From Oegoconia quadripuncta (taxonomy: Eukaryota > Arthropoda > Insecta > Lepidoptera > Autostichidae), in the NCBI GenBank assembly GCA_949316235.1, contig OX438749.1:4544914-4608913 (forward strand): a DNA stretch of 64,000 nt. Direction: 5' to 3'. The stretch's first letter is position 1, and every line of letters starts with the position of its first letter. The notes below the pieces were generated by a model. It saw only the letters and a list, made by a program, of their open reading frames with translations, had not been told where the DNA came from and ran no database searches. Position numbers and translations under genes: made by a program. This document shows, one piece after another, positions 11,401 to 64,000 of this stretch.

Positions 11401-11595
11401 AAAAAATTATTTTGGTTTAAAAATAAATATATTTTTACCGAAAAGTTTTTTTTTATTATAAATAAACCCAATAGTTTTTGCTACTAAAACAGGTACTTTA
11501 TCCTTTTTTGGGTCGCAATGAACAAATTGACACGTGTCCTATGACTGTTGTAGGGTGGGGACGGGGTCCATACAAAATCCCCCATGGTCCTTTGA
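8487..11595 (+). mobile_element. Nested DDE_Tnp_4/SWIM transposon (ISL2EU-like)
   Basis: It sits inside MADF exon 1 of element A. The ends are inverted: TCAAAGGAC(G)ATGGG at 8487-8501 against its complement at 11581-11595. A second inverted block, GTCCCCACC.T.CAACAG, lies just inside each end and is followed by a shared GTGTCA..TTTG. The TIR is thus about 60 bp and imperfect. Host codons resume in register with a MADF domain on both sides, which fixes the insertion to within a few bases. The exact target duplication is unclear because both edges are palindromic. It contains one intact two-exon transposase gene. Confidence 0.78.
8979..11212 (+). CDS. DDE_Tnp_4 transposase with C4 finger and C-terminal SWIM finger
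   Basis: Exon 1 is 8979-9110 (44 codons, donor GTTAGT at 9111) and exon 2 is 9311-11212 (acceptor TTCCAG). The phase-0 join gives 677 aa with no interruption. Exon 1 supplies CVMC and exon 2 CHRC, so a four-cysteine finger spans the intron. A second C-x4-C...C-x2-H cluster follows. The catalytic triad of the DDE_Tnp_4 fold is D (10112, in LDGTYIYI), D (10352, in VDRGFRD) and E (10499, in VVEAVNGKFK), spaced 80 and 49 residues. The C-terminus has C-x-C...C-x-H (11068-11115), a SWIM finger. It should cut and paste its own element in the nucleus. The class resembles ISL2EU/IS4EU within the Harbinger superclade; the exact family is uncertain. Confidence 0.85.
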
Positions 11596-12011
11596 AAATT
11601 AAAGCATGGGATGAAATCAGTCGTATAATATTTTCTACAGTTTGGGGTACGTTGTCGTCACAAGAAAAAACTGAAGCTGGTGAGTATCTTTTTATTTTTA
11701 GTATTTGTAGCTAAAACAACAGTTGTACAAAAAAGTGAAATTCAGATTTTATCATATTGCCATGACACAGCCCCTTGTGGTGAAGTAAAGTAATTCGCAA
11801 AATAATTACGTATATTTGCTGCTGATATGGTTCTGTCTGATGGATTTGTTGCAATACCTTTTAATGGACAATCGTAAACAGTGTCAGTAAATTGAATGCC
11901 ATCTCTGCACCGTACAAAATTATGTAAAATACAACATGTTTTTACTATTATATCAGCAAAATCAAGACTGACGTCAAGGGGCCTGTGCAAAATTCGCCAT
12001 TTGTTACAAAG

Positions 12012-12271
12012 TTTTGTTTTATTTCATTTTGATTATTCTAAAATGGTATGACGTTGACGTAACAATGGTTACATACTTATACTTTCTTAATTAATTTTGA
12101 CATACATATAACAATATGTTTTACTATTGTGTACAGGAATTTGTTTTTTATGTTATTATTTTTTGTTTTATGTTTGACAATCACTTTTATTTTAAATTTC
12201 ATAAATTTACGAAACTGTATGTATGACATGCTATTGTAAAAGTGAACTAAATAAATCTAATCTAATCTAAG
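12012..12271 (+). mobile_element. Truncated LINE tail with (TCTAA)n end
   Basis: The insert interrupts transposase codons that match the family consensus on both sides, so its limits are known within a few bases. It ends in AAATCTAATCTAATCTAA, a short tandem-repeat tail typical of non-LTR elements. The flanks share only AAG, so a clear duplication is missing. No coding sequence. Confidence 0.7.
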
Positions 12272-13542
12272 TATACGAAAAGTGCATTCAACCATGCGTC
12301 GTGCCCTAGTGTGGCGATAGTTGTAAATTTTTTTCACAGTAGACAATGATTTTCTTGCATATGGTCGCAAAATATGCCTCGACAAGCCAAATGCCTCATC
12401 AGCGACCAAACAAAATGGCATTTTTTTTCCATTTTCATCATATGGCAAATTACGATCATCTGGTATGCTCAATTGATTTTGCTGCAATATTTTGCCCATG
12501 CCAGAATTCTGAAATACATTGGAGTCGCTTGCTGCTCCATTAGCACCAACATCTATGTATACAAATTTATAATCTGCATCTACCCATGCTATGAGAACAG
12601 TAGAAAAGTACTTTTTGTAATTGAAACACTGCGAACCGGTGTTTTCCGGCTGAATTATTCTCACATGTTTGCCATCAATTGCGCCAATTATGTTCGGAAA
12701 ATTTGTCCGTTGGTAAAACTGATTTGAAATAGTATACCAATCCTCTTCAGACTTTTCAGGCATGTATAGTGTATGTAAATTCCAGATCGCGGAACATGTA
12801 GATTTTACAATTTCTCGTGCAGTGGTGGCACCTATCAAATATTCAAATGATATGCTGTAAAAACTGTTGCCGGTTGCAAGATATCTGAAACAAAAGAAAA
12901 TTAAATACATAATACAAAATTAAAGTTAAAAATACATAAATTAAATAAATGACTGACTGTTTTATACTAGTTAAATATTTATTTTCAGGTAAACTTGTAC
13001 AAAAACGATGGAAGAATTTAAGGGCTTGTTTTTCACGTGAGCTACGTGAGCAAAAATGTACTAAGTCTGGCCAGGCCGCTACAAAAAGAAGAAAGTACAA
13101 ACATTTTGACCAACTTTTATTTCTTATCCCAAGCATGGATACCCGAGAAACCTCAGGAAATGCTGATTCTGTAGAGGAAATTGCTTGCGAAGAAGATAGT
13201 CAGGATGCCAGTGTGGAAGTACTACAGCGAGAAGAATATTCCCGAAAGAAAAATAAGAATAAAATATGTTACGAAGAAAGGCTTCTAGAGATTTTAAACA
13301 ACAAAAGAGTTGATGATAACAGGTTTATCGAGGCTATGAAAAATAACAAAAGTGACTGTAATGACGATGACAAGGAAAAGCATTTTGCGCTGTCTTTGGT
13401 GCCGTTGTTAAAAGCAGTCCCGGAGGAGAATAAACTAGACTTACAGATCAAAATTTTACAAATTTTCCAGGAAGTTCAGAAACAAAACACTCAGCGCAAT
13501 AATTATTCTCCTATGAATAGCCCATCCACAATTTATAGAGGT

Positions 13543-14070
13543 AGTCCTCAAAATTTCCAAATCAAGCCCAAATATTCTGTCTCTCTACCATCGCAAAGTC
13601 CCCAAGGCCCACTACACTTAGCAAGAAACACTCCACTGATTATATCTCCTTCTCCTACATATATTCCATCTACAAGCCCTCAAAATATGCAAATCAAACC
13701 CAAATATTCTGTCTCTCTACCATCGCAAAGTCCCCAAGGCCCACTACACTTAGCAAGAAACACTCCACTGATTTTATCTCCTTCTCCTACATATATTCCA
13801 TCTACAAGCCCTCAAAATATGCAAATCAAACCCAAATATCCTGTCTCTCTACCATCGCAAAGTCCCCAAGGCCCACTACACTTAGCAAGAAACACTCCAC
13901 TGATTTTATCTCCTTCTCCTACATATATTCCATCTACAAGCCCTCAAAATATACAAATCAAACCCAAATATTCTGTCTCTCTTCCATCGCACATTCCTCA
14001 AAATCCGCTCCACTTAGCAAGAAACACTCAACTTGTTTTATCTCCTTCTCCTACTCATACATCTACAAGT
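13543..14070 (+). repeat. Coding minisatellite, four 132-bp units
   Basis: Units start at 13543, 13675, 13807 and 13939, each 44 codons and each beginning SPQN with QIKPKYSVSLP and PLHLARNT inside. Units 2 and 3 are nearly identical; unit 4 is the most diverged. The period is a multiple of three, so the MADF frame is kept. Confidence 0.95.
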
Positions 14071-15032
14071 TCCCAAAATTTGCTACCCTCTGCACACACT
14101 CAACCGAATTCATCTTCACAATCATCGCCTCCTAAGCAAGACCCGAAAAACTCCTCAGCCGCCTCATCGTCATCAATTCAAACCTATATTACAGAGTTTA
14201 CAGAAGATTCCGAATTGTATGACATCTGCCAGGAGTACAATATCAACCAACATGAAGAATAATTAAAGAATATTACATTTCAATTACTTTTTTGATTTTT
14301 GATTATAGTTAAAAACTACTTACTTTAATTTGTATAACATTTTTGTATTTTCATTAAAATAAACAATTTAAAATTACATAATATTCTAATTACTTATATT
14401 TACCTCAAAGTAACAGCGAGTCTTTCTTCAGCCGGAACAAACAATCTCATGTTTGTATTTTCGTATGTCAACGCAGGCCCTAAATTGCGAAGTAATTCAT
14501 CAAAACTTCTAACAATCATTCGAAAATACCCAAAAAATTTCTTTGGATGTTCCCGAAGTTTATGAAACATGGTGTAGAACTTTCCATTTATTAACCTGTC
14601 ACTCCAAAGGGGGTGTACCCAGTATTCTTTTCGCTTTTTTTCTCTTTTGAGTTTCCTTATAAGCTCACAGATGACGACCGTCTCTTCGAAATCCATTTCG
14701 ACAAATGAAGCTTTAAAAAAAAAATTGTTTTCGTGAGCGCACCTCGCTTTGGAGGCGTGACGTGACAGCGACAAAAACTTTTTGTCATGCTGACAAAAGT
14801 CACCGGTGCGCGCTAGCTCTGACCGTTTCGACCGCTCGCTCGTTACGTGCCATAGGTACGTGGAGTGAGGGGAGTAGGGCATCCTTTCCCGCCCCGCGGT
14901 CCCCGTGGCGTGTGCGTGCGAACTTCATACCGGTCGGCATTCGGCAGCGAAAACAGGTTTATGCGTGCATCTTTTCACCGCGTAAAGTGTAATAGTTCCG
15001 ATTTTCTTTTAACAAAAGAGAAGTATTTGTTT

Positions 15033-18690: not shown

Positions 18691-19354
18691 TTCTTACCAT
18701 CGTCGACCTACTCGTAGGCTGGTTTTACAGTGACGCTTTCGCCAGCGCGGTTGGTAAGCGTTGCGGGCCACGAGCTTTGCGTCTCTTGGATCGTTACATA
18801 GTTTAACCAACACGCGCGGTTGGCCTGCGCTGACGGCAATTCGGCCGCGCTTTTCAACCGCGCGCGGGTGAGGAGTCATTTGTGCTCAGTGTGCGTTGCA
18901 CAGTCTCGCCGGTTGGATGCGCGCATGCGTACTGTTGTCGCCAAAATGAATGCGAATTACATCGATACTGGTCGATTGATAGAAGAAGTTCGCTGTCGAC
19001 CATTGTTATGGGATGCATCGGACGAATTATACAAAAACAAAGACGCAAAAAATAAAGCTTGGGAAGAAGTTGGAGAAGCAATCTTTGGAGAAAATTACAT
19101 AAAGAAAGACAAAGGTATGGTATGCTATAATTTTTATTTTTGTTAATTACATTTATATTATGTTGCTATAAAGTCGTCGTTAAACGTGTAGGTATAGGGT
19201 AAGATTGAACTCATTGGTATTAATTTAACTTGTTGGAGCACGCATTTTTCATGCAGTCCGTTAATAAAACTGCAATAGAAGGCAACTTGGTAACAAAATT
19301 AACAATTAAACATCAAACAACATCAGTATTTTGGTGTACAAAGTGGTGTAGAGG

Positions 19355-20130: not shown

Positions 20131-20429
20131 GTACCTCTAGAATATATGTCTGTCTTGCCACGAAACGCTGCCAGCAGGCGATATAAAGTAATCGGCAAAC
20201 ACTTCCCGTAGTGTATTTCCTGTTCTAGAAAATGGCTGAAGATTCATGTTAGTCAAACCACTAATGCTTAATAAGTCATTTTCATTGTAGCCGTCTCGCA
20301 CTCTGATGAAATTGTGTAATACACAACAAGCTTTAACTATAGTTTTTGCGTTTGGGAAGCTAGCGTTCATTGGAGTGTGAAACACTCTAAATTTGTTTGA
20401 TAATATTCCAAATGTACATTCTATGTACC

Positions 20430-22370
20430 AAAATGAAAATGAAAAAATGAAAATGAAAATGAAAAAATGTTTATTTTCGTAGGATACAATTGATCACTTG
20501 AAAACGTTAATATATCATTTTAAATTTACCGCTCATTCGTAATGCTGTAATCCCCAGAGAAGAACGAGCAAGAAACTCAAGGGGTTGCTCTTTTCTGCGA
20601 GTCAAGATATTATTTAATAACAGTAAATTGCTTTATACTTTTTTTGGTATAGAGTCAAACATATTTATTAACAATAAATTACTAACTTTAATTTGGTTTA
20701 TAGTTATACATACTATACGTCGCCAAATAAGTTTTAAGTCCAAGGATTACTGTCATTTAAATAATCACAAATTTTATAGTAACCTTTTGCACTGAGCTTC
20801 TGCTTCACGATACCTTTGAACTTATCTAAAGGCAAATTCTGCATATCTTCGGGAATCTTATTGAACAAACGTATACATTGCCCCTTAAATGAATTACTAA
20901 CTTTATGGAGTCTAGTTGAATGCAGAGCAAGTTTATTTTTATTTCTAGTATTTATGTCATGTTTATCGCTATTTTTCTCAAATGAAGATATATTTTTCTT
21001 TACATAAATGACATTTTCATATATGTATTGGGATGCTAATGTCAAAATATTTACTTCTTTAAACAGTTCCCTCAAAGAATCCCTCGATTTTAACTTATAT
21101 ATTGCTCGAATGGCTCGTTTCTGTAGTATGAATATTTTACTAATGTCAGCTGCATTTCCCCACAGTAAAATTCCATAAGTCATTAAACTGTGGAAATAAC
21201 TAAAGTAGACTAACCTAGCTGTATCAACATCTGTAACTTGTCGAATTTTCCATATTGCATATGCTGCCGAGCTGAGCCTTTTAGACAATTTTAAGATATG
21301 TGGTCCCCATTGTAGCTTAGCATCTAGAGTAATACCTAAAAACACAACTGTATCTACAGGGTCCAGCAATTCTTTTTTAATAACAACACTAGTGGCGACC
21401 TGTCTGACGTTTGGTAGAACAAACTTGATGCATTTAGTTTTCTTTTCATTCAAAAGCAAATTATTAGCCGTGAACCAATCTACCATTTTTGTTATACAAT
21501 CATTAACAATACTGTAATCTTGTTCATTTCGTCTAAGTTTGAACACAAATGATGTGTCATCTGCAAACAGTACAATTTCATGTCTGTCTTTTACAAAGAA
21601 AGGTAAGTCATTTATGTAGACTAGAAACAGGAATGGACCCAATATGGATCCCTGGGGAACTCCCATGCTAACCGCAGAACCTGATGATCTCATTCCATTG
21701 ACATCCACCACTTGGATCCTATTACTAAGGTAAGATTCCATAAGTAGGAGTGCTTGACCTTGCAATCCATAGTGACGTAGTTTTTTTACCAAAATGTCAT
21801 GCCGAACGCAATCAAACGCCTTGGAAAGATCACAGAACACACCTACTGCATCCTGCGACTTCTCCCAGGCATCAAGTATGTGTCCTATTAGCTCAACACC
21901 TGCATCGGTTGTTGAGCGACCCCGGGTAAAACCAAATTGTTTAGTGTGCAATAATTTATTTGTATTAAAATGTGTTAATAATTGTTCAAGGATAATTTTT
22001 TCAAATATTTTACTAAGAGTTGGTAGTACTGATATAGGTCTGAAATTTGTGGGGTCCGATGTACTACCTGATTTAAACAAAGGAATTATCTTGCTGTATT
22101 TCATTAAGTCAGGAAAGACCCCCTGACCAATGCACATGTTAAAAACATCAGCTAGGTAAGGAGCCATGCAATCAATTACAGATCCAATAATTTTTACAGA
22201 GAGACCATCGAGATCTGCGGTATTACTCATTCTAATACGATTAAATGACTTTAATATATCGGAGGACACTATAGGCCTGAAATCAAATGCAACGTTACAT
22301 GGACTAACACTTGACTTTAGCAGAGATTCAGCTAGGGTGGGAGATGAGTTTAGGGTTTTGGTAGCCTTAG
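20430..22370 (-). mobile_element. 5'-truncated non-LTR retrotransposon (CR1/Jockey group)
   Basis: Inserted in the transposase of element B with target duplication GTACC (20425-20429 and 22371-22375). On the minus strand it ends in a (CATTTT)n tail, like the TTTTCATTTCA tail of a related fragment at about 35350. Only the reverse transcriptase end of ORF2 is present, as usual for 5'-truncated copies. Confidence 0.9.
20734..22370 (-). CDS. Non-LTR reverse transcriptase, 5'-truncated
   Basis: The frame is open from the insertion junction to the stop at 20734 (about 545 codons). It contains the reverse transcriptase blocks in order: FRPISVLPTLSKIFEK, FGFTRGRSTTDA, SKAFDCV, MGVPQGSILGPFLFLVYIND and the catalytic FADDTS box, then FLGITLDAKLQWGPH and HSLMTYGILLWGNA. 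The endonuclease domain and start codon are missing, so it could not move by itself. It is the best preserved of three related copies in the window (others at 30567-31325 and 34724-35369). Confidence 0.92.
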
Positions 22371-24399
22371 GTACCTTCTTGCACGACTTAGACGGTAGTT
22401 GAATATCTTCTGTTTGTGGTTCATATCATTTCGAAGATAAGGTTTCATCACATAGTTCGATATACCAAATGCGCCATCACCAAGTATTATATGAGGTGCC
22501 ACAATAGTAGATCCTGGTAAGTACTTTGGAGCCGGTAATCCTAAATTATTTCTTTCTAACTGTTGAAATAGTACACTGTTTTGGAATATAGTAGAATCTG
22601 AGTTTTTACCGCAAGAACCAATGTTGACATAAGTAAAGCAATAGTTGGCATCACACATTGCCAGAAGGACAATAGAATAAAAATGTTTATAATTGTAAAA
22701 CATTGATCCTCCGCCTGCGGGATTAACTATGCGTACATGTTTACCGTCTATTGCCCCACAACAGTTAGGAAAGTTTGCATACATCTCAAACTCTGCACTA
22801 ATACGTTGCCAAATTTGTGTTGTCGGTTGAGGAATGCATTCTTCACGTAGTTTTTCCCATATCTCACAGCAAACTTCCTTGACGATTTTGCTGATAGTAG
22901 TAACTCCCATTCTGTATGTGACTTGTAGATCAAAGTAAGTGTTCCCAGTTACTAAGAACCTGAAAAAATATATAATTATTAGAACTGGAAAAAAGTAGGA
23001 CAGGAATAATAAAAAGTGCAGGTTGGAAGGTATGTCACACAAAATAGTATTATTGCCAATTGATAATTCACTTCTTTTTGTTTCAGATAAGCTTTTACGT
23101 CAAAGGTGGAAATCTGCAAGAGACGGGTATTTCAAAACCAAAGCTAATATGAAAAAAACACCATCCGGTAGTGGGACTAAAACCGTTACAAAATACATTT
23201 TTTTTCAAAGAATTAAACTTCCTTGATCGTACTACTGAAAACGAAATTTCAGAATCTATGGTCGACATTAATGAGCAATCAAGTTCATCTGAAACACTAG
23301 CTCACGTAGCGATTAGTGGCGACATTTCTGGTTCTTCTCAAAACTCTACTCTGTTGGCTGACCAACATAAACCAACATGGGCTCGGAAGAGGAAGAATGA
23401 ACGGGTACAAGAGAGCTCCGCGTTTGAGAAAAAGTTGGTTGATTTGTTGGACAAGAATATGCCGGACATAAGCCCTGACGATTTGTCATTTTTTAATTCT
23501 CTAGGTCCAATACTAAAATCTTTCAACAGTTATCAAAAACTATTATTTCGTTCTAAAGTATTGCAAATTGCCATGGATCTCTCCGCGCCAACTTCAACAG
23601 GCACAACGTCGACATCAAACTTTTTAACAACAGCCAACGAATACTCCAACAGTTTGTCACCAGATAATAACTCAAATTCTACTACAACATCAGCAATCAA
23701 TTATTCCAATGATACTATGACGCAACGAGGTTATCAATCAGCAAGTCCATATTACGTCATGCCACCAGAAAATGATTCTAATTCTTCTATAGTGCATGCA
23801 ACCAATTCATCATTTCTTTCAAACTTAACGTTACCAACCGACGAATCAGTATCTAGAAGGACCACGCACCAAGGCCATCAAACAGTAAATCAATATGATC
23901 CTTATTCAACAGTCAATAATATTGCATCAGAAAACGACAATTTCTGTTAATTACATTTCCACGAGTTATGTTTTTTTTTAATTGTTTAAATTTTCTTATT
24001 AAAGTAATTACTAAAAATTGAATAGTATTTTTCATGCCACTTACCTTAAGGTAATCGCCAACTTTTCAACTGGTTCTATAGGTGCGCGACGTAAACTTGA
24101 TCGTTTTAAATGATATTCTATCTTACAGAGTAATTCATCGAATGTTGTTATAGACAGACGAAAATGTTTAAAGAACTTGTCACTATGTTCTCTTAAATCC
24201 GAAAACGATGTAGAGAAGGCGCCTCTCAGCAACCTAGTGGCATTGTAAGGATGTACTTGTATACGTCGTCGTCGTTGCCTTTTTTCCATATGTAATATAT
24301 TATAATAATTACGAGAAGTTTCATCACGACTGTACGGGTCGGCAAACCGCGCGACTCTAAACTCGTTTTATAGTTTCGAGCGGGTCATCCGCGCGCTTA

Positions 24400-24457
24400 G
24401 GGCGCTTTTAGTGTCACGCGGATTTGCTCACGCACGCGGGATTGGCCCGCATGCGTA
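24400..24457 (+). repeat. Left TIR of element C
   Basis: 58 bases identical to the complement of 29124-29181. It is GC-rich, with the words GCACGCGGG and CCCGCATGCG, in contrast to the AT-rich interior. Followed by a GC-rich leader (to 24640) that probably holds the MADF promoter. Confidence 0.95.
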
Positions 24458-24640
24458 GCATCCGCAAAGAACAATTTCATATAGGTATCTATTGTAAAGC
24501 GTGATAAACGCACGCGGGACGCGGGGCGCTGTGCGGGGCGTCACCCCGGTGCGGGGTATCCGCATGCGTAAGCGCTGCCTACAACTTCAGTGCCCATTTT
24601 AGAGTCGAGCGGGGCGCACGCGCCGTATTGTACTACCGAA

Positions 24641-27600
24641 ATGAAAATCGATACAGAACGAGTAATCATTGAAGTTCATCTGCGGCCCGTTTTGTGGGAT
24701 AAACGCAATGAATTATACAAAAACAGGGACGCGAGGGAGGCTGCATGGAGAGATATTTTGAAGGAATTGGCACCTAACTACGAAAATTTGAGCGAAGAGG
24801 AAAGAAAAGTGGCGGGTATGTGTTTGGTTCATTATTTTATTTATACAACCATCATTACTTTATTAATATAAGCATAATTATTTAATTCACAAATAACATC
24901 AAAAACCTTCTAAAACCTTTTGAGTTTAGTTAATTAATTATATATCGGTGTTGCCAGGAGACTTTTCCTTCATTGATAAAGTAATCTGCAAATATATCTC
25001 TGATATTACTTGCCGACGTATTACTACTTTCAGTCTGCTGCCTGGGTAGTGGTCCCGTAAAACCATTTGTGACAAATGTATGGCTGACCATGTAGCCATC
25101 CCGTTTCCTTATGAAATTGTGAAGTACACATGCCGTCTTGACTATTAATTGTGCTAGATCTAACTTGACAGTCATGGATCTGTGAAATATTCTAAATTTA
25201 TTTGACATAATTCCAAAAGTGCATTCTATGTACCTTCTAGCTCTGGACAGACGGTAATTAAATATTTTCTTTTTGTAAGGTAAATTATCACGAGCATAAG
25301 GCCGCATCACATGTGATGATAAACCAAATGCCTCATCTCCCACTATCACGAACGGCAACTTTGCTCTTACACTAGATGGATAAGCTACTTCGGGGCAAAT
25401 AATAGGCAACTCTTGCGGGTCAGGGATACCCAACGTGTTACTTTCCAGTTTCGTATACAATTGACTCCTTCTAAAGATGGTTGAATCGGCGTTGCTTCCA
25501 CTGGTACCGACATTAATATATGTAAAATTATAATCAGCATCACACATTGCGAGGAGCACTACAGAATAATATTTCTTATAATTAAAATATAGTGATCCAC
25601 TGTGCGGCGGCCGAATCACTCTTATATGTTTTCCATCAATAGCACCCAAGCAATTAGGAAAATTTGTATATGTGAGAAATCCCTCTGCGATTTCTTTCCA
25701 TTTGATCCCATTAAGCTGTGGAATACATTCAGACTTTAGTTCAATCCATATTATGTAACAAACTTGTCTTACTATTTCGCTAATTGTTGCAATTCCAATC
25801 AGATAGGAATAGTGTAGATCAGTGAATGTATTACCAGTTGCCAAATATCTGAAAACAAAAACAATATATTAATAATATGATAACATAATATATTAATAAT
25901 GCTGACATCAGACATAAGACAGCATGCACCGCTCGAATTTTACTTCAGAAGAAAAATAAATACCCTTAAGGTGAAAGGGCACGGAAGTAGCTAGCGCTAG
26001 AAGTTTTTAATTCGTTTTAACTACAGTACTATAGCTACGTTAGATTTCTATGATTTGCCGAAAATGTTATCATAGGGGGGTATTTATGCAGTTATGATTT
26101 CATATGAAAAGTTCGAAGTATAGTTATGTATCTCATATCTGCTAAAAGTGGCCACTTTTAGCAGATTTGAGACACATAACTATGCTGTAAATATTTTATA
26201 AGAAATCTTCTTTGTATAAATTAACCCCTATGGTAAAATTTACGGCAAATGAAAGGAATCTAATAAATATATATAATATAATATAATAAAATATCGTTTA
26301 TTTCAGGCAATATTTACATTACAAGATGGTAATGTAAACAGAGGCCCATAGATATATACCTTACAGACTAACATACATATTATTTTATATACAAAAACTA
26401 TTTTAATTATTTCACACGTAATGTCGCCGACGTGTGCATGGTGTCAGCGGGCAGCCGCCCTCGGAACTTCCGAAACACGACACCCTGCGGCCAGAAGTCC
26501 TCCTTCATGAAGGTTGACAGATGCAAATAAAGAAAATTTTTGTTAAAACAATTAAAAACTTACAGCGCTAGTGACTTCCGGAAGTTTTCACCTTAATTTT
26601 GATGATGGCAAATTTTACTGTAACAAATAAACAAATTTCCCGATTCAATCCGGTGTTTTTCCAAAAATCCTTAAATGAAATTCTAATTATTTTTGTAAAA
26701 AATGAATTATTTCCATTCAGTAAAATTTGCCATCATCAATATTATGGGTACTTTTCCTTCAACTGCGGCCTTATTTTTCCACTCTGTATAGGTATATATA
26801 TATTGCTTGATTTATCTAATGCTTCATGAGACAGTGTAAAGTTGACAACATGTGTGAATTAAGGAGGGCCTTTAATCGAATGCAGTTAAATTTCCAACTA
26901 ATATCAGATTTGTACACACGGCCACAGATCAAGCTTCCCAAAACCAGTATAAACAGGACTCATGCGTTGTTTATTATCGTAGACGACTCGCCGCCCGGCG
27001 AGGCCCGAGCAAGTTCCGTTTATTGGTACTGGTTTTGGGTAACTTGATCTGAAACTGTGTGTACTTTTGCCACTTACTTATTATATTTTGTCATTTCAGA
27101 CAAGAAAATACAACAACGCTGGCGAACAGCAAGGGACACTTACCAGAAAGACAAGATATCTGAAAAAAATCAGCCATCCGGCTCTGGGAGTAAGAAGAAG
27201 AAGAAATATTCTTACTATGACATTTTGACTTTCTTAGACAGTACAACGGAAACTGTTGGAGAAGAGTCACTCTGTGAAGAAATGTCTGAACAAAGTAATT
27301 TAGAAACACCTAATGAGTCCACGCAACCAGGTACTTCACGTCAAGAAAGTTCTCAACTAACATCACAACGTAATTTAGAAACACGTAATGAGTCCACGCA
27401 ACCAGATACTTCACGTCAAGAAAGTTCTCACCCAACATCAAAACAAAAACAAGTAAAATCTAAAAAGCAAGCACCATCTGAATTTGAGGCACAGTTATTA
27501 GAATGCTTAAAGTCTAATCAACTGGAGCTAGAAAGTGAGGATTTGGCTTTCTTTCAGTCTCTGCAGCCTTCATTAAAAAGATTCACTAGATATCAAAAAC

Positions 27601-27950
27601 TAATGTTCAGAACAAAAGTGTTAAATATAGTTATGGAAATGGAAAGTCAAACACAACCTGCATACTACAGTCCCATACCTACAACAAGTTCTAGTGCTTT
27701 TACTGAGCTTGACAGTTTGTCACCGATAAATCAAGATTACCAAACCAATAGTATAATCCAGGATACTTCGAGTCTTAACGACAATGCTATTAGTTCTGCT
27801 GCAGTGAATGACAATGAAACTCTTATTTCGACTGAAAGCGGCTTGTTTAATATCACATCTTATGACGTAATTTATACCCCAGCAACAACATCATCTACAG
27901 GCGAAAGAAATGTCAACGCTCAGGATACAAATTTACAAAGAAATGAATGA
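24641..27950 (+). CDS. MADF/BESS-type partner protein of element C
   Basis: Exon 1 is 24641-24815 (58 codons plus one base, donor GTATGT) and exon 2 is 27100-27950 (acceptor CATTTCAG). The phase-1 join gives 341 aa without interruption. MADF domain, residues about 7-105: VIIEVHLRPVLWDKRNELYK, AWRDIL, then QQRWRTARDTYQ. The linker is rich in S, T and Q and holds a 75-bp duplication. A BESS-like domain lies near residues 205-235 (LAFFQSLQPSLKRF). MADF binds DNA and BESS mediates protein contacts; the likely job is helping the transposase reach the ends, by analogy with Harbinger Myb-like partners. The start was chosen as the first ATG before the MADF domain. The intron holds the transposase exon 2. 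Confidence 0.9.
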
Positions 27951-29045
27951 TGTAAAATTTGATTTTTTAATTTATGAATAAAACTCTTTTTATTAAAATG
28001 AGTACGATTAACTTTTTTTCTCCAGTTTCTCTCTAATTGTTTGTTTAGTCATATGAGTGCGGTTGTACACACGGCACAGATCAAGTTACTCAAATCCAGT
28101 ATAAGCGGGACTCCGACGGGTTACCTAAGTATGATAATACGCAAGGCGCGAGTTCCATTTATGCTGGTTTTGGGTAACTTGATCTGTGGCCATGTGTACT
28201 TTATCAGATAAAAAAAAGGATTGTGTATGTAGGTTGAACGTACCAATCCCAAACCAATTAAGGACTTTTTTTGACTTTAAATTACTGTCATGTGCAAACC
28301 TATAACTTTTATCTATATTATAATAAGTAGCGTGTGATGAAAGGTAGGAATGATTCCACTTTAATGGTGACATTTTATGAGTGAAATAATCTTATTTTAT
28401 GAAATTTCAACAATTAATAACCAATGACGCGTTACTTTACGATATTTCAAACAAAAAATCATTATTATACCGTTTATTTAGACTGGATAATTACTAGAAC
28501 ATGTGTTGTATGATGTCTCAATAGTTGACCACGATGGTCAACTACCGAAAAAATCATTGATTTGATTTTTGTTTAACATTTTTGCAGTTGACCAGAGTAC
28601 ATGACAAATTTTTTTTTTGCACATGTAAATTTACACATGACAGTAATTTGAAGTCAAAAAAGTCCTTTACTGGTTTGGGATTGGTACGTTTATCCTACTT
28701 GTTCAAATCCCTTTCCACTAAATCATAGCAGGAAATTAAATATTTAAAATTTTAAACTTACCTTAATGTAATAGCGAGCCTCTCAATCGGTTGTATTGTA
28801 ATCCTTCGTAAACTGCTTTTTTGTAGCTTATTCTCAATTTTACACAACAGTTCATCAAAAGAACGAATGGACATTCGAAAGTAATTTTTAAATTTACGTT
28901 CATTATTTTGTAGTTTTCCAAAGTGTGTAACAAACGCCCCAGCAAGAAGCCTATTTTCAAGAAAGGGATCAACATGTACTCTTGTCTTCTTGTTTCGTCG
29001 TTTGTAAAGTATGTAAGCGACAGATATTCTTCTGACATTGATCAT
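24930..29045 (-). CDS. PIF/Harbinger transposase of element C, intact
   Basis: Exon 1 is 29045-28762 (donor GTAAGT) and exon 2 is 25848-24930 (acceptor TTTTCAG). The phase-2 join yields 400 aa with no stop. The N-terminus (RVHVDPFLENR...FKNYFRMSIRSFDELLCKI) matches other copies. Catalytic residues of the DDE_Tnp_4 domain: D166 in GAIDGKHIRV, D266 in VGDEAFGLS, E303 in RRYIECTFGIMSNK. VLHNFIRKRDGY follows near the end as usual. It cuts and pastes the element in the nucleus, choosing TTA-like targets. The intron encloses MADF exon 2 of the opposite strand, so the two primary transcripts are complementary over about 3 kb. Confidence 0.93.
26041..26262. mobile_element. Palindromic MITE in the introns of element C
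   Basis: The two halves are imperfect inverted copies from TAGATT(T)CTATGATTTGCCG at 26041 to the complement at 26262. The centre is a perfect 28-bp palindrome (26138-26165, TCTGCTAAAAGTGG and its complement). No coding sequence. Confidence 0.8.
26263..26567. other. Intronic segment with an unassigned insert
   Basis: The GC-richer part at 26400-26510 (CGCCGACGTGTGCATGGTGT and following) stands out from its AT-rich surroundings and may be the end of an unrecognised retroposon. No reading frame supported. Confidence 0.35.
26568..26772. mobile_element. MITE with GATGATGGCAAATTTTACTG arms
   Basis: The arm at 26599-26618 has an exact complement at about 26719-26738, and weaker similarity extends to 26568 and 26772. 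It lies in the MADF intron of element C. Confidence 0.6.
26912..27064. mobile_element. GTACACAC MITE, copy 1
   Basis: Ends GTACACACGGCCACAGATCA (26912) and its complement near 27064, with a shared CCCAAAACCAGTA just inside each end. It stops 35 bases before the MADF exon 2 of element C and may influence that acceptor. A second copy lies at 28065-28199. Confidence 0.85.
27295..27444 (+). repeat. 75-bp tandem duplication in the MADF linker
   Basis: 27295-27369 and 27370-27444 are nearly identical, each coding NLET.NESTQP.TSRQESS. In frame, so it only lengthens the linker. Confidence 0.92.
28065..28199. mobile_element. GTACACAC MITE, copy 2
   Basis: Same ends as copy 1 (GTACACACGG.CACAGATCAA; complement ending at 28199) and a similar centre. 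It lies between the MADF stop and the transposase donor of element C, thus inside the transposase intron. Confidence 0.85.
28229..28702. mobile_element. Fold-back element with about 72-bp arms
   Basis: The left arm (GTACCAATCCCAAACC... at 28240) and right arm (complement at about 28632-28702) share GGACTTTTTTGACTT and ATTACTGTCATGTG. The centre (28301-28631) is unrelated AT-rich DNA. It lies in the transposase intron of element C. Confidence 0.8.
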
Positions 29046-29123
29046 TTTTGAACACGTCTATACCGTTACGCAGCCCGTAGAAAACTGAAATTCATGCTGC
29101 GTATGATCCGCAGCGTGAAATTT

Positions 29124-29181
29124 TACGCATGCGGGCCAATCCCGCGTGCGTGAGCAAATCCGCGTGACACTAAAAGCGCCC
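29124..29181 (-). repeat. Right TIR of element C
   Basis: 58 bases, exact inverted copy of the left TIR, starting 79 bases beyond the transposase start codon (29045). The short space implies that the transposase promoter overlaps the TIR. Confidence 0.95.
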
Positions 29182-29233
29182 TTACGGGCCGCGCTTACCA
29201 CCCGCGCGGACGGTATGCGTCACTGTAAAACCA

Positions 29234-58795: not shown

Positions 58796-60640
58796 ATGGC
58801 GGCGGAACAAACTTTTAATATTAATTTTGTCCAGGAGGTGGAAAATTATCCATGTCTGTATAATTATAAGCTGCCAGAGTACGTAAGAAAAGATGTTACA
58901 GAAAAGGCGTGGATTGAGATTGGAAAAAAATTCAATTTGACAGGTCAGTAATAATATTTTTTTATTTATATAAATTAAATTTATACACAATAATTAGATT
59001 GCCAAGGAAGCGAAGCATGTGGGGTTATTAGATAATTGGCAAGATAATTTCTCAGATTTTGTGGTGATGAAAGCGGGGAAATCTGAAGATGCTCAGGTAT
59101 TAAAATGTAACAACAGCCTTAACAATGTTGGCTACTTTATCTACTGATCTACATCGTATTGCATTGCTCAAGACAGGAAATTTTTCTGTCATCATCCCAA
59201 ACGCACATTCAATTGTTTTCCTAGCTCTGCTGAGTCGGTAGTTATAAACTCTTCTTACGTTATTTAGTGTTCTTTGTGGATATGGTCGCATCAAATACCG
59301 CATTAGCTTCATCTCCAACGAAAAAGTACGGGAAGAGGTTTTCATTTACATCATTTGGTAAAACAGAAGGTGGCGGTGTGTTCAGACTGGACTGCTCCAT
59401 CCAGTATTTAATGGCTGATGCTTTAAATATACCCCCATCACTGTTTCTTCCCGCATAACCTGTTTCAATAAATGTGAAAAGACCATCTGCATCACTGCAT
59501 GCCATTAACACAATGGAGTGATAAGACTTATAATTGAAATTGCTTGAACCAGTGTTAGGTAACTTTTCTATTCTTATATGCTTGCCATCCAAAGAACCTA
59601 AACAATTAGGTAAATTCCATAGCAGATAGAAACGTTCGGAAATTTTCTTCCAATCAGCCATGTTTGGGATTGGCATGTAAGTTTGACTTAGTTTATCCCA
59701 AATAATAATTACAGTTTCTGCAATAATTGTAGATATTGTATTGTCTCCTCTTGCGAAATATGATGCCAAGCTTGTAAATGTACATCCTTCACCTAAATAC
59801 CTGAAACAAAAACCATAATTAACACTTTAATTACAGGTGCCGAGTGTAAAGCAAAATGGCGAAATATTCGTAACGTATTTGTTCGGAATATGAAACCCGG
59901 TAAAAGTGGAGCTGGAGCAAAAAAAAAGAAACCATATTACCTAAATGAGGTGATGCAATTCACGTTACCATTTATTAAATTTTCAACAGTGTCTGTTTCT
60001 GGGAACTTAGAAAAGCCACCAATCGACGAAATTAATCAACCTGACATCGATGAGTTATCCGATGAAGAAGATGAATCCCAATCAGTACTGAACAATTTTT
60101 TTAATAATACTCATACGTTAAATACTCAGATAAGTACAGAACATAGACCAATATCAACGCCATCACCACAGTCACCATATTCAATGCCGACGCCAACTCC
60201 ACAATCTCGACTATTACCAACGCCATTGCCGCATTCGTCTTCAGTATCAATGCCAACGCTATCTCCACAGTCTCGACCATTACCAACGGCATCACCGACA
60301 TCAAATCTTTCAACGATGAAAAAAATCCGCAAAACAAAAAACTCCATGGATGAAAGCATCCTTAATTATTTCAAGGCTAAACAAGCTAGGGCAGAAACAA
60401 ATGAACATCATGTACAAAATCCAAAAAGAATGTTTCTGTTGAGCTTATTGCCCGATCTAGAACCTATGTCCGACGGACAAATGAGGAAAAACGACGGAGA
60501 AATTTAAACGAGGCGTTATGCAGTTAATAGATAATATTTTGGAAGATACCCCTACTACATCATCGTCAATAGACAATTCGCAGATTACATTGTATTATGA
60601 AACAGTAGGAGAAGATTTAACCACACCGCTTAATGAAAAT
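58796..60640 (+). pseudogene. MADF/BESS-type partner protein of element D
   Basis: Exon 1 is 58796-58943 (donor GTCAGT) and exon 2 starts at 59837 (acceptor ATTACAG), phase 1. The MADF domain reads FVQEVENYPCLYNYKLPEYV, AWIEIG, then CKAKWRNIRNVFVRNM. A proline/serine-rich linker follows (60140-60300). The BESS motif starts FLLSLLPDLEPMSDGQMRK at 60432 and breaks near 60490, where a frame change is needed before KRGVMQLIDNIL. The frame as it stands stops at 60507. Only 36 bases separate its acceptor from that of the antisense transposase. Confidence 0.8.
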
Positions 60641-61017
60641 ACTTAATAAATATTTTGATTACTTTGTTTAAATAAATAAGTATTTTGATAGCTTTACCTG
60701 AGTGTTATTAAAATCCTTTCCTCAGCTGTCACGCATTCTCTCATTACTGTACTTTTCTTATGAATATTCGGAGTTAACGACTGCATCAAATAATAATATG
60801 ATTCTTTTGACATTCCATAAAAATGACGAAATTTCTCGTCATCATTCTCATGCAGTTCTCTAGCAGCGACGAATGCTCTACAATTGATATTGTTTTCGAT
60901 GTACGGATGCACCCAGAATCTTCTTTTACATTTTCGTTTAGGCTGCCTACGCACTGGCGACCATGGTCGCCGCGACCTGGCCGCGGCGGCCAGTGAATTC
61001 TGGACTTTATATGGCAA
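59101..61017 (-). pseudogene. PIF/Harbinger transposase of element D
   Basis: Exon 1 is about 61017-60698 (donor GTAAAG) and exon 2 starts at 59800 (acceptor TTTCAG), phase 2, joining ILITLR to YLGEGC. Motifs: LGSLDGKHIRI (first D), FVGDEA (second D), and in a second frame RKTIECAFGMMTEKF (E). The frame shift lies just behind GDEA (about 59300). The C-terminus is cut after VKA (59101). The start codon is uncertain because the N-terminal part runs into GC-rich terminal sequence. Confidence 0.8.
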
Positions 61018-61210: not shown

Positions 61211-63411
61211 ATGGCCAATTTCGACACGGAAAGGTTCATAATTGAAGTTGAAAATAGAAGAGGCTTATGGGATTTAGCATCAAATGATTACTCCAATAAA
61301 GATGTTAAGCGGCAGTTGTGGCTTGAAGTGGTCGATATATTTGGCGGTGAATCGATGGAAGATAAAGAAAAGGCAGAACTTGGTTAGTATTTTATTTTAT
61401 TATGCCTAAGTAAGTAATAATGCGATGAACTACAATAAACGCAGCAGGTGCTGTAGTAGCATTCGACACGTATATGTGACATGAGTGATTTTTTTTTAAA
61501 GTTGTTCCGTTCATTCAAAATCTAAGAAATTTTAGCAAATAGGTAATTGTCAAAAGTATAACTATTTTATTTCTACTATTTTTCGCTTTGCACATGAGTT
61601 TTGACAATTATTTGCTAAAATTTCCCAGGTTTTCGTAATGATTGGAATAACTTTTTAAAAAGATTACTCATACCGCATGTGCGTTCGACGCCATTTTGTT
61701 TACGGCGCGCAATGGCGGCTCGCGGCGAGCAAGTGCCTCAACGCACAAACTGAGCAGCCGTCGTAGGTACGCACCCATATATTTACAAATTGTGCCAGGG
61801 CAAGCGACCATCGGTACTGAAGTAGTTTGCGAATATATCTCGATATTCGGTTGATGTTCTATTTGCTCTATTAGGTAAAGATGCAGGTATTTCTAATAAA
61901 GCCTCTGGTACAGTTAACGTGTCCTTGAAATCATATCCGTCTCTTTCTCGCACAAAATTATGAAGCACACATAGAGCTTTTATAATCACAACTGCAAATT
62001 CTTTCTTGACGTTTAGGGGTCGGTGAAGAATCTACCATTTATTGGCTAATATTCCAAATGTACATTCAATATAGCGGCGGGCACGGGATAGTCGATAATT
62101 AAAATTAGTCTTTACATTATTCAAGTTTCTCCCAGCATACGGTCGCATCATATGTTCCGATAGTGAAAACGCCTCATCACCCACTAAAACGAACGGCATT
62201 GATTGGCCATTTTCTTTGATGGGGTTATTGCTCGGAATATCGAGATCATTATTTAAAAGCCTATGATAAAATACAGAGTCTTTGTAAATTGACGAATCAC
62301 TGCATTTGCCGTATGCTCCAATATCTACGTAAAGAAATTTATAATTTACATCACATATTGCAAGTAACACGATTGAAAAATAATTCTTGTAATTGTAATA
62401 AAGAGATCCCGAATGTTGTGGTTTGATAACTCTAATGTGCTTGCCGTCGATGGCTCCGATGCAATTAGGAAATTGGGCGTATTTTTGAAAACCTTCAGCC
62501 GTTTGAATCCACTTATCTCTGGTCAATTGTGGAATCACAATTGGTTTTAATATCTCCCATATTGCTTCACAAACATCAAATACTATTTCCGATACTGTAG
62601 GAAGCCCTATACGGTATTCATGACTTATATGAGATAAAGAACACCCAGTAGCCAAATACCTGAAAATAAAATTCACATTAATAAACATAATATTAGTTTT
62701 GTAATATGTACCACATTTATTTATTGATTTACAGGCATTACTCTCCAAAAAAGATGGAAAAACCTTAGAGACTGTTTCACAAGAGAGCTGCGCCGTCTTA
62801 AAGATGTCAAAAGTGGTTCTGCTGCAAAACGTAAATCACAATACACCTATTTCAACCAATTACTGTTTTTGAAATCAGTGCTGGACACAAACGCAACAGA
62901 AAATAGTCTCGAAGAGGCAAGTCAAGAAAATGAAAGTGCAAGATCAGAAGATCTTGAGACTCAACAGTCTGCATCAAAGTCGCTTAGAACAAAAAGGAAG
63001 AAAAAAATACCAAACGAAGAATCCGATACAGACCCTCTAATTTCAGTTCTGCATAAGACCATAGCGACTACACAGAATGATTCAAATTGTGACAGACTGT
63101 TTCTTTTATCCCTCCTCGAAAGATTTCAAACAATCCCTGCTGCAATGAAGACCAAAGCGAAAATGGAAATCATGGAAATTATAGAAAAATACCAACCGAA
63201 CTGTACACCTACAACAGCGCGCATAAACTATTCAAGTAATTTCAATACTCTTAACGACCAAGAATATGACCCGCATCGACCGAGTTATTCAGGTTATTCT
63301 ACTACCAACAGGATATCAGATGATTCAAATTACAGCGATACTCATACTCATTATTCTGATATTTCTCAAAATTCAGAAATGATAGACCTATTTCCCAATT
63401 TGAATGATTAA
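61211..63411 (+). CDS. MADF/BESS-type partner protein of element E
   Basis: Exon 1 is 61211-61382 (57 codons plus one base, donor GTTAGT) and exon 2 is 62735-63411 (acceptor TTTACAG). The phase-1 join gives 282 aa with no break. The MADF domain (FIIEVENRRGLWDLASNDYS, LWLEVVDIFG, then LQKRWKNLRDCFTRELRRLK) is complete. FLLSLLERFQTIPAAMKTKA at about 63100 is the BESS-like part. The intron holds transposase exon 2 and a MITE. It resembles the protein of element A (both have QKRWKNLR with CF.RELR), so A and E are the closer pair. Probably a DNA-binding partner of the transposase. Confidence 0.87.
61460..61690. mobile_element. Palindromic MITE in the MADF intron of element E
   Basis: The arm at about 61481-61556 (GAGTGATT ... 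ATTTTAGCAAATAGGTAATT) is complemented by 61598-61672. The adjacent 61683-61762 (GCGCGCAATGGCGGCTCGCG ... GAGCAGCC) looks like the terminal part of a different PIF/Harbinger element, including an AAAATGGCG word on the minus strand. Confidence 0.65.
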
Positions 63412-64000
63412 TTGTTCACAATTGCAATTTTTTAAGTTATGAAAATACAAATAATTTGATTATCTACTTCAGTTTTTTAATATTTAAAAACATGTTATAA
63501 GCAAGCCCTTTTCCTCTCCTTTTCAAAGTCGTAAAGTAGAATACTACTGAACAATAGTTCATAAATTTTTTAAAGTGGCAAAACCTTGGTCAATGAATTA
63601 TACAGGTTGTTGTGAAAAACACAACAGTGGTGGTTTAGGGTGATTCAGAATCGAGTCTTGTATAATTCAAATTTACAAAAAAATCCATTTAGCAGTTTAA
63701 GTAAAAAAAAGGCCCTATCACATTATTTTTATTTTTCCTGTACACAATACTCCATTCCGAAACACCCTTTAAAATATATCACGTATTTTTTAAACATTCT
63801 GTATTTAAAAAAGAAAAAGCTTACCTTATTGTTATTACTAATTTTTCTTCTGCTGGAATGCATTTCCGATAGTTGTTACCAGTTCCAGTAATTTTTGGTT
63901 TTATTGTATCCAGTAACAGGTTAAAAGTATTCGTTGACATTCTCATGTAATTAAAGAATCTCTTCTCATACATTTTTAAATCCAAAAAATAAGTATAATA
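61783..64000 (-). pseudogene. PIF/Harbinger transposase of element E, one nonsense codon, 5' end outside
   Basis: Exon 1 (beyond 64000 to 63825, donor GTAAGC) shows FFNYMRMSTNTFNLLLDTIK and CIPAEEKLVITI. Exon 2 starts at 62659 (phase 2, R-YLATGCS) and ends at 61783. Motifs: IGAIDGKHIRV (first D), LVGDEAFSLS (second D), RRYIECTFGILANKW (E). A TAG follows directly at 62032-62034; the same frame then runs on through ILHRPLNV and VLHNFVRERDGY to the normal stop. The catalytic triad lies before the stop. Confidence 0.88.
63412..63824. other. Transposase intron segment of element E
   Basis: Between the MADF stop and the transposase donor; about 410 bases against 142 in element A, so it may contain a small insert (TGTTGTGAAAAACACAACAG at 63610 is a short inverted repeat). 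No gene. Confidence 0.4.

Follow-up and report, generated by a model that had tools for sequence, protein, structure and literature searches.

The 64-kb stretch of the Oegoconia quadripuncta genome analyzed here (contig OX438749.1, C8 in our numbering, positions 4544914-4608913; hereafter, the window), which belongs to a genome of 622.6 Mb in 45 contigs, contains an intact PIF/Harbinger transposon, designated element C, in which a transposase gene and a MADF gene lie on opposite strands with their exons interleaved. Along the element, the order is MADF exon 1 (+), transposase exon 2 (-), MADF exon 2 (+) and transposase exon 1 (-). We conclude, with a probability of roughly 85%, that the two genes start from opposite ends of the element, that each splices out its partner's exon and that the arrangement is an inherited plan of this transposon lineage and not a local accident.

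The span of 24400-29181 given in the original prediction proved to be exact, with terminal inverted repeats (TIRs) and the trinucleotide TTA at both ends. The inverted arms comprise 59 nt with 100% complementarity, that is, 58 bp of the element and one base shared with the flanking TTA, the target site duplication (TSD). The features of element C are as follows:

24400-29181: the whole of element C, an intact PIF/Harbinger element in the window
24400-24457, + strand: left TIR, 58 bp, with the TSD TTA at 24397-24399
24641-24815, + strand: MADF gene exon 1, first half of the MADF domain, donor GTATGT at 24816
24881-24886, - strand: ATTAAA, candidate poly(A) signal for the transposase gene, within the MADF intron, identified as a motif only
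24930-25848, - strand: transposase exon 2 (DDE_Tnp_4), located in the MADF intron, with the CAG acceptor directly above 25848
27100-27950, + strand: MADF gene exon 2 (second half of the MADF domain, repeats, BESS motif), within the transposase intron
27977-27982, + strand: AATAAA, candidate poly(A) signal for the MADF gene, within the transposase intron, identified as a motif only
28762-29045, - strand: transposase exon 1, donor GTAAGT
29124-29181, - strand: right TIR, 58 bp, with the TSD TTA at 29182-29184

Membership of the PIF/Harbinger superfamily is clear, and in this respect the original prediction of a two-gene element was confirmed. Transposase exon 2 of C carries a DDE_Tnp_4 domain (PF13359, E = 4.7e-32), while the spliced product of the second gene matches MADF (PF10545, E = 3.1e-16), the MADF/Myb/SANT-type partner of the superfamily, and BESS (PF02944, E = 1.7e-08); the MADF domain becomes full once both exon halves are joined. 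TIRs are perfect over 58 bp in C and about 30 bp long in a second family (L017-L022), and the TSD is a 3-bp TWA. Neither YqaJ nor THAP, the partner and transposase marks of ISL2EU, was found among the Pfam matches of the C proteins, and the possession of a MADF-BESS partner separates C from the Spy type with its single open reading frame (ORF). The one trait in which C departs, that of two independent genes (as described in PMC2836001), concerns the layout and is not diagnostic of the superfamily.

Over its full length of 400 aa, the spliced C transposase shares 99% identity with a 400-aa protein of Leptidea sinapis (LOC126965301), and the spliced MADF protein (341 aa) is 97% identical over 100% to a 341-aa protein of the same species, with 10 of 341 residues differing on re-alignment. 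The MADF protein is closer still to an entry from Bicyclus anynana (two mismatches in 341 aligned residues), which has 50 extra residues in its repeat; the copy number of this repeat differs among database proteins. The near identity of the C MADF protein to these two entries hints at recent horizontal spread among butterflies.

The claim that each gene has one coding intron containing the partner's opposite-strand exon was borne out by matching GT-AG introns. In all five elements of the window (A to E), the transposase intron is in phase 2 and splits an arginine codon at LR/YLATG, with donor AG/GTAA and acceptor CAG/ (the slash marking the exon border), and the MADF intron, which interrupts the MADF domain, is in phase 1, with acceptor CAG/ and donor G/GT, again in five of five. 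Since the domain E-values are strong and the same order recurs in many families, chance is a poor explanation for the layout of C.

This recurrence was established by a survey in which 150 of 552 candidate DDE_Tnp_4 places of the genome were scored, and 66 of these 150, together with element D, were examined as loci (the 30 best matches, followed largely by single representatives of the score groups, plus three C copies and the neighbor of the window). Four profiles were built from peptides of the window and the genome, families were defined by grouping transposase exon 2 at 80% DNA identity and tallies were made by manual reading of the profile results, with MADF-gene exon 2 of locus L062 being judged by eye. 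The automatic exon table misses MADF exon 1 of element B because of a distance limit, and the profile search shows it.

The survey yielded 36 families, 17 of class I and 12 of class II, the two classes being defined by intron position as described below, and seven without a MADF part. Among the 29 MADF-type families, 24 had all four parts in order, four were partial but consistent and one lacked a detectable MADF part; an alternative order of the two genes was seen in none of the 29, nor in any family examined. Nineteen of the 24 complete families lie outside the five of the window. For the families surveyed in this genome, these figures agree with the original prediction's expectation that the order would not prove to be a local rearrangement. 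In class I, 16 of 17 families were complete with the right strands, L038 being without transposase exon 1 in its stretch; in class II, 8 of 12 were complete (L014, L031, L024, L035, L046, L064, L065 and L072), and L010, L015 and L062 were partial but consistent. Some parts had weak scores, namely, BESS in L064 and L065 (15-19 bits) and MADF exon 1 in L040 (21 bits). L033 also contains the beginning of another class II element, which is cut by the end of the stretch and was left outside the count. The seven families without a MADF part comprise six with low scores (the groups of L028 and L023, L016, L025, L059 and L073), which we take to be HARBI1-like, and L001, whose neighboring ORF encodes a THAP domain.

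Splice sites were conserved within class I, where 18 loci from 14 families were read: every one of the 17 loci with exon 1 has a GT transposase donor at the same codon, and 17 of the 18 carry a CAG or ACAG acceptor at that codon, L040 being decayed there. In class II, the transposase intron lies approximately 44 residues further on, with the acceptor preceding a V/I/L/A-P pair in all six loci read (L035, L031, L034, L046, L024, L010) and the donor after a CAG codon in the two clearly read (L031, L046), which indicates phase 0. The class II MADF domain is whole ahead of the transposase exon, and the last exon carries a BESS-like tail only. Hence, intron positions differ between the classes in both genes, while the four-part order is unchanged, and no family with all four parts mixes introns of the two classes. 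The 3' exons of the two genes begin back to back: their first recognized codons are 10-178 bp apart in 13 of the 18 class I loci and 306-1240 bp apart in the remaining five, which include C, and in the class II locus L035 the exon starts lie approximately 40 bp from each other. The class II intron positions, these back-to-back 3' splice sites and the polarized arrays described below go beyond the original prediction.

With regard to mobility, C is a complete PIF/Harbinger DNA transposon that was recently mobile. Seven places in the genome scored alike, and the window copy was compared with three of the other six, on contigs C1, C20 and C11, which were 100% identical over 4406, 4211 and 4432 aligned bp, respectively; as TSDs, the window copy has TTA/TTA and the C1 copy TAA/TAA. 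The L017-L022 family, a unit of approximately 2.77 kb with both genes interleaved, gave 99.9-100% identity in five pairwise comparisons, with TTA on both sides in L018 and L019 and a differing right side in L017. Inverted repeats resembling small insertions occur in the introns of C (26040-26263; 26912-26981 with 28130-28199; 28249-28298 with 28630-28679); the first two lie within the aligned part of all three identical copies and hence travel with the element, and the third is cut in L049. A second match to MADF exon 1 in L005 (2846-3052), a copy of the L002 family, stems from tandem duplication of the end of that copy.

The other four elements of the window were analyzed by tblastn with exon peptides. 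The four-part order ascribed to all five by the original prediction was recovered in B, C, D and E; it did not hold in full for A, where three of the four exons were recovered and MADF exon 1 is left only as a short remnant (approximately 11595-11679), this exon being present in A's relatives L043 and L061. C is the sole intact element of the five, the others being damaged by a split transposase exon 2 (A), a frameshift and a reverse-transcriptase (RVT_1) ORF (B), a frameshift (D) and one in-frame stop (E). Transposase exon 2 of A, B, D and E is 44-57% identical to that of C over the aligned parts, and the five are therefore different families and not recent copies of one another. Their features are as follows:

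11595-11679, + strand: A, MADF exon 1 remnant, donor GTGAGT
11754-12884, - strand: A, transposase exon 2, split by approximately 258 bp of extra sequence
12989-14262, + strand: A, MADF exon 2 with three in-frame 132-bp tandem repeats (13543-14059)
14404-14696, - strand: A, transposase exon 1
18946-19114, + strand: B, MADF exon 1
20143-22959, - strand: B, transposase exon 2, interrupted by the RVT_1 ORF at 20737-22425
23087-23950, + strand: B, MADF exon 2, frameshifted
24045-24286, - strand: B, transposase exon 1
58796-58943, + strand: D, MADF exon 1
59118-59800, - strand: D, transposase exon 2, one frameshift near 59305 (3' end not delimited)
59837-60507, + strand: D, MADF exon 2, starting 36 bp from the start of the opposite-strand transposase exon 2
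60698-60951, - strand: D, transposase exon 1 (5' end not delimited)
61214-61382, + strand: E, MADF exon 1 (5' end not delimited)
61789-62659, - strand: E, transposase exon 2, one in-frame stop
62735-63411, + strand: E, MADF exon 2
63825-64000, - strand: E, transposase exon 1, running past the window edge, with the open frame continuing at L035:738-1142

L035 (C8:4608000-4614000), just to the right of the window, holds an interleaved Harbinger of class II that adjoins element E and has the same orientation as A to E.

Transposase matches also cluster along the contigs, tending to lie on the + strand to the left and on the - strand to the right (C8 at 4.338-4.612 Mb, window included; C1 at 5.09-5.97 Mb; stretches of C17). 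A single plus-to-minus switch per cluster fits 90 of 99 matches in 10 clusters on three contigs, and the reverse switch fits 66. The cluster of the window fits in 15 of 15 matches (shuffle p 0.0003), the other nine have p values of 0.06-1.0 when taken singly and all runs together give p 5e-05. Outward transcription from a cluster center would yield transposase antisense RNA, resembling a trap of the PIWI-interacting RNA type.

Both gene trees were compared as a measure of co-inheritance. In the transposase tree, 15 class I rows form one clade with ten insect, crustacean and frog proteins (support 96/93), and B and C group with two beetle proteins. The tree of the MADF gene (the same number of class I rows) recovers the five transposase-tree groups tested (L036+L039, L017+L044, those four together, L002+L037 and B+C), three of them starred and two not; these groups showed no starred conflict, with the place of A not being compared. 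This agreement, where tested, is expected if both genes travel as one unit, and it fits the congruence reported for fish Harbingers (PMC9179366).

Class II as one clade was neither resolved nor excluded (approximately unbiased (AU) test, p 0.131; p 0.188 with L051 and L052), and one or two origins of the layout are therefore both compatible with the tree. L051 and L052, two short contigs from bacterial bins, carry eukaryote-type Harbinger transposases with neither intron; they have no firm place in the tree, no MADF was found on their sequenced side, which makes them uninformative on gene order, and their presence in bacterial bins is probably contamination. Viral contigs gave 145 pattern matches with the class I alignment and 57 with that of class II, none of which was confirmed as a relative.

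Taken as a working arrangement, the layout would operate as follows. Each gene would have its promoter near its own terminal repeat and be transcribed inward, toward and past its partner, with the transcript terminating at a poly(A) signal located in the intron of its partner. Splicing would then remove, together with the single coding intron, the partner's 3' exon carried there on the opposite strand, that is, the antisense of MADF exon 2 from the transposase pre-mRNA and the antisense of transposase exon 2 from the MADF pre-mRNA. As reckoned from the positions of the poly(A) motifs only, the predicted pre-mRNAs of C overlap by approximately 3.1 kb (24881-27977) and those of D by 1.7 kb. The original prediction that the primary transcripts must be complementary over kilobases is thus upheld as a sequence inference, although "must" would apply only to genes expressed in the same cell; its companion claim, that the mature mRNAs share no sequence, agrees with the predicted models, in which splicing removes the overlap from the coding mRNAs. 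Some poly(A) candidates deviate from the pattern: one signal falls outside the frame in L036 and E, and one was not found in L038 and L040. Poly(A) hexamers near the partner's splice donors were also considered as proof and were not used, being suggestive but likely to arise by chance in AT-rich DNA.

The two proteins would act together as in known Harbingers, where, according to PMC2836001 and PMC9710019, binding to the element ends and nuclear import of the transposase are tasks of the Myb-like partner and both proteins are needed; the requirement for both in transposition is described for rice and zebrafish elements (PMC2836001). Nearly any internal deletion or single crossover would damage at least one gene, and the pair would thereby stay matched. 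This locking of two genes by their layout appears to be its likeliest lasting effect, with control by double-stranded RNA a possible but lesser one; this control, like the coupled splicing of the two genes put forward in the original prediction, is a proposal.

Several points weigh against this reading. In L060, a class II family, the transposase intron is present and the profile search found no MADF part. The survey covers 66 of the 150 scored places out of 552 candidates in one genome, and the families are related, which means that 24 is not the number of independent origins. Promoters, splicing and poly(A) sites were read from sequence alone, and the matching database proteins may be computed models rather than cDNA. 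Finally, the TSDs of C are TGA/TAA in the C20 copy, none was seen in the C11 copy, and a TIR match was not found in the two flank stretches of the C4 copy.

With respect to how the layout came about, the alternative that survives best, to which we give somewhat less than even odds, is a tandem duplication spanning the middle of two genes arranged tail to tail, after which the near copies were lost and the resulting order persisted with no function in itself; class I and class II would each represent one such event. A duplication of this kind would give both genes an intron at once, and it predicts the back-to-back 5' ends of the 3' exons seen in 13 of 18 class I loci and in L035. Likewise, the intron positions of both genes shift together between classes, and transposases with neither intron exist (L051, L052). 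Nonetheless, the gaps are wide in the other five class I loci, remnants of the lost near copies were not recognized in the gaps with the profiles (matches of 8-11 bits were not assessed) and the tree allows one origin as well as two. A version of this model based on an AG/GT proto-splice site found no support, as the site was absent at the class I position in all 13 uninterrupted loci (L026 and L031 being one place). L028/L032 was also considered as an ancestral convergent, non-interleaved layout and discarded, since the two opposite-strand ORFs after the transposase match no Pfam family.

It is possible, although doubtful, that the layout arose at least twice, with differing intron positions, because it is favored, locking the proteins together and setting their balance by convergent transcription. 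Rather unlikely, in our estimation, is the functional reading of the original prediction, that it is a control device, in which convergent transcription keeps transposase low through double-stranded RNA, colliding polymerases or small-RNA silencing. The predicted overlap of the pre-mRNAs would suit such a device, as would the persistence of the order at the 44-57% identity to C noted above and in two intron classes, and the location of many elements in polarized arrays. However, persistence is also expected from shared ancestry, the layout being hard to undo, and the proposal presupposes that both genes are transcribed in the same cells.

That the gene models are wrong, with transposase exon 2 being a gene by itself or with exon borders that differ and remove the interleaving, seems very unlikely. 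The DDE domain does lie wholly in transposase exon 2, and many database proteins (of approximately 300 aa) cover that part only. Against this, database proteins of approximately 385-400 aa from insects, crustaceans and frogs span 93-100% of the spliced transposase query, the joined MADF halves form a full domain and the splice sites are conserved. Exon 1 is also under purifying selection: in six pairs of related families with up to five parts each, the ratio of nonsynonymous to synonymous substitution rates (dN/dS) was 0.08-0.49 in every exon part with unsaturated synonymous sites, and the corresponding ratio of proportions (pN/pS) was 0.26-0.46 in the saturated parts, from which we conclude that all four exons are maintained as protein. 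A local rearrangement or assembly artefact limited to the window, a dense nest of transposon-like ORFs in which such an event might be suspected, can be set aside almost entirely, as it is refuted within the assembly by identical units on several contigs and by the complete families beyond the window's five.

Animal two-gene PIF/Harbinger elements such as Harbinger3_DR resemble the present ones in their DDE_Tnp_4 transposase, Myb/SANT-type partner, TIRs and 3-bp TTA/TAA TSD, but here the genes lie on opposite strands with interleaved exons. The two Harbinger genes are described as seemingly independent (PMC2836001), and two genes or ORFs appear without interleaving in passages of PMC9710019, PMC4482050 and PMC9179366. 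Similarly, the plant element MtPH of Medicago has two genes, a DDE transposase and TAA/TTA duplications; it differs in that TPase precedes orf1 or orf1 precedes TPase, with introns in TPase (PMC2213677, Table 1).

Two comparisons come from host genes. The co-domesticated insect pairs LPLG2/LPM2 and APLG/APM also consist of a PIF transposase and a MADF gene derived from one insertion and are neighbors in the host genome (PMC9710019); unlike C, they are adjacent (97 and 179 bp apart in Anopheles gambiae; adjacent in most Lepidoptera) and not interleaved, and they have neither TIR nor TSD. The gene 2mit, within an intron of timeless2, likewise runs in the opposite direction inside its host intron (PMC3786989), but this is one-way nesting of host genes, in contrast to the mutual nesting of a mobile pair.

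In the literature searched, no description of interleaved Harbinger genes was found, in agreement with the original prediction of an undescribed reciprocal nesting, and the layout is new to that extent; an earlier description in Kapitonov and Jurka 2004, Sinzelle 2008, Smith 2012, Casola 2007 or Repbase is possible.

For these elements, mobility would depend on splicing the partner's exon out of each strand, and two proteins would be bound together in a unit not cleanly separable by internal deletion. Gene prediction in Harbingers that expects two separate ORFs could misjudge exon borders and intactness. The elements would also offer a natural many-copy system for the effects of convergent, interleaved transcription on splicing and small-RNA silencing. 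Were the beetle, aphid, crustacean and frog relatives within the class I transposase clade to share this layout, it would represent an old, widespread and unnoticed transposon body plan.

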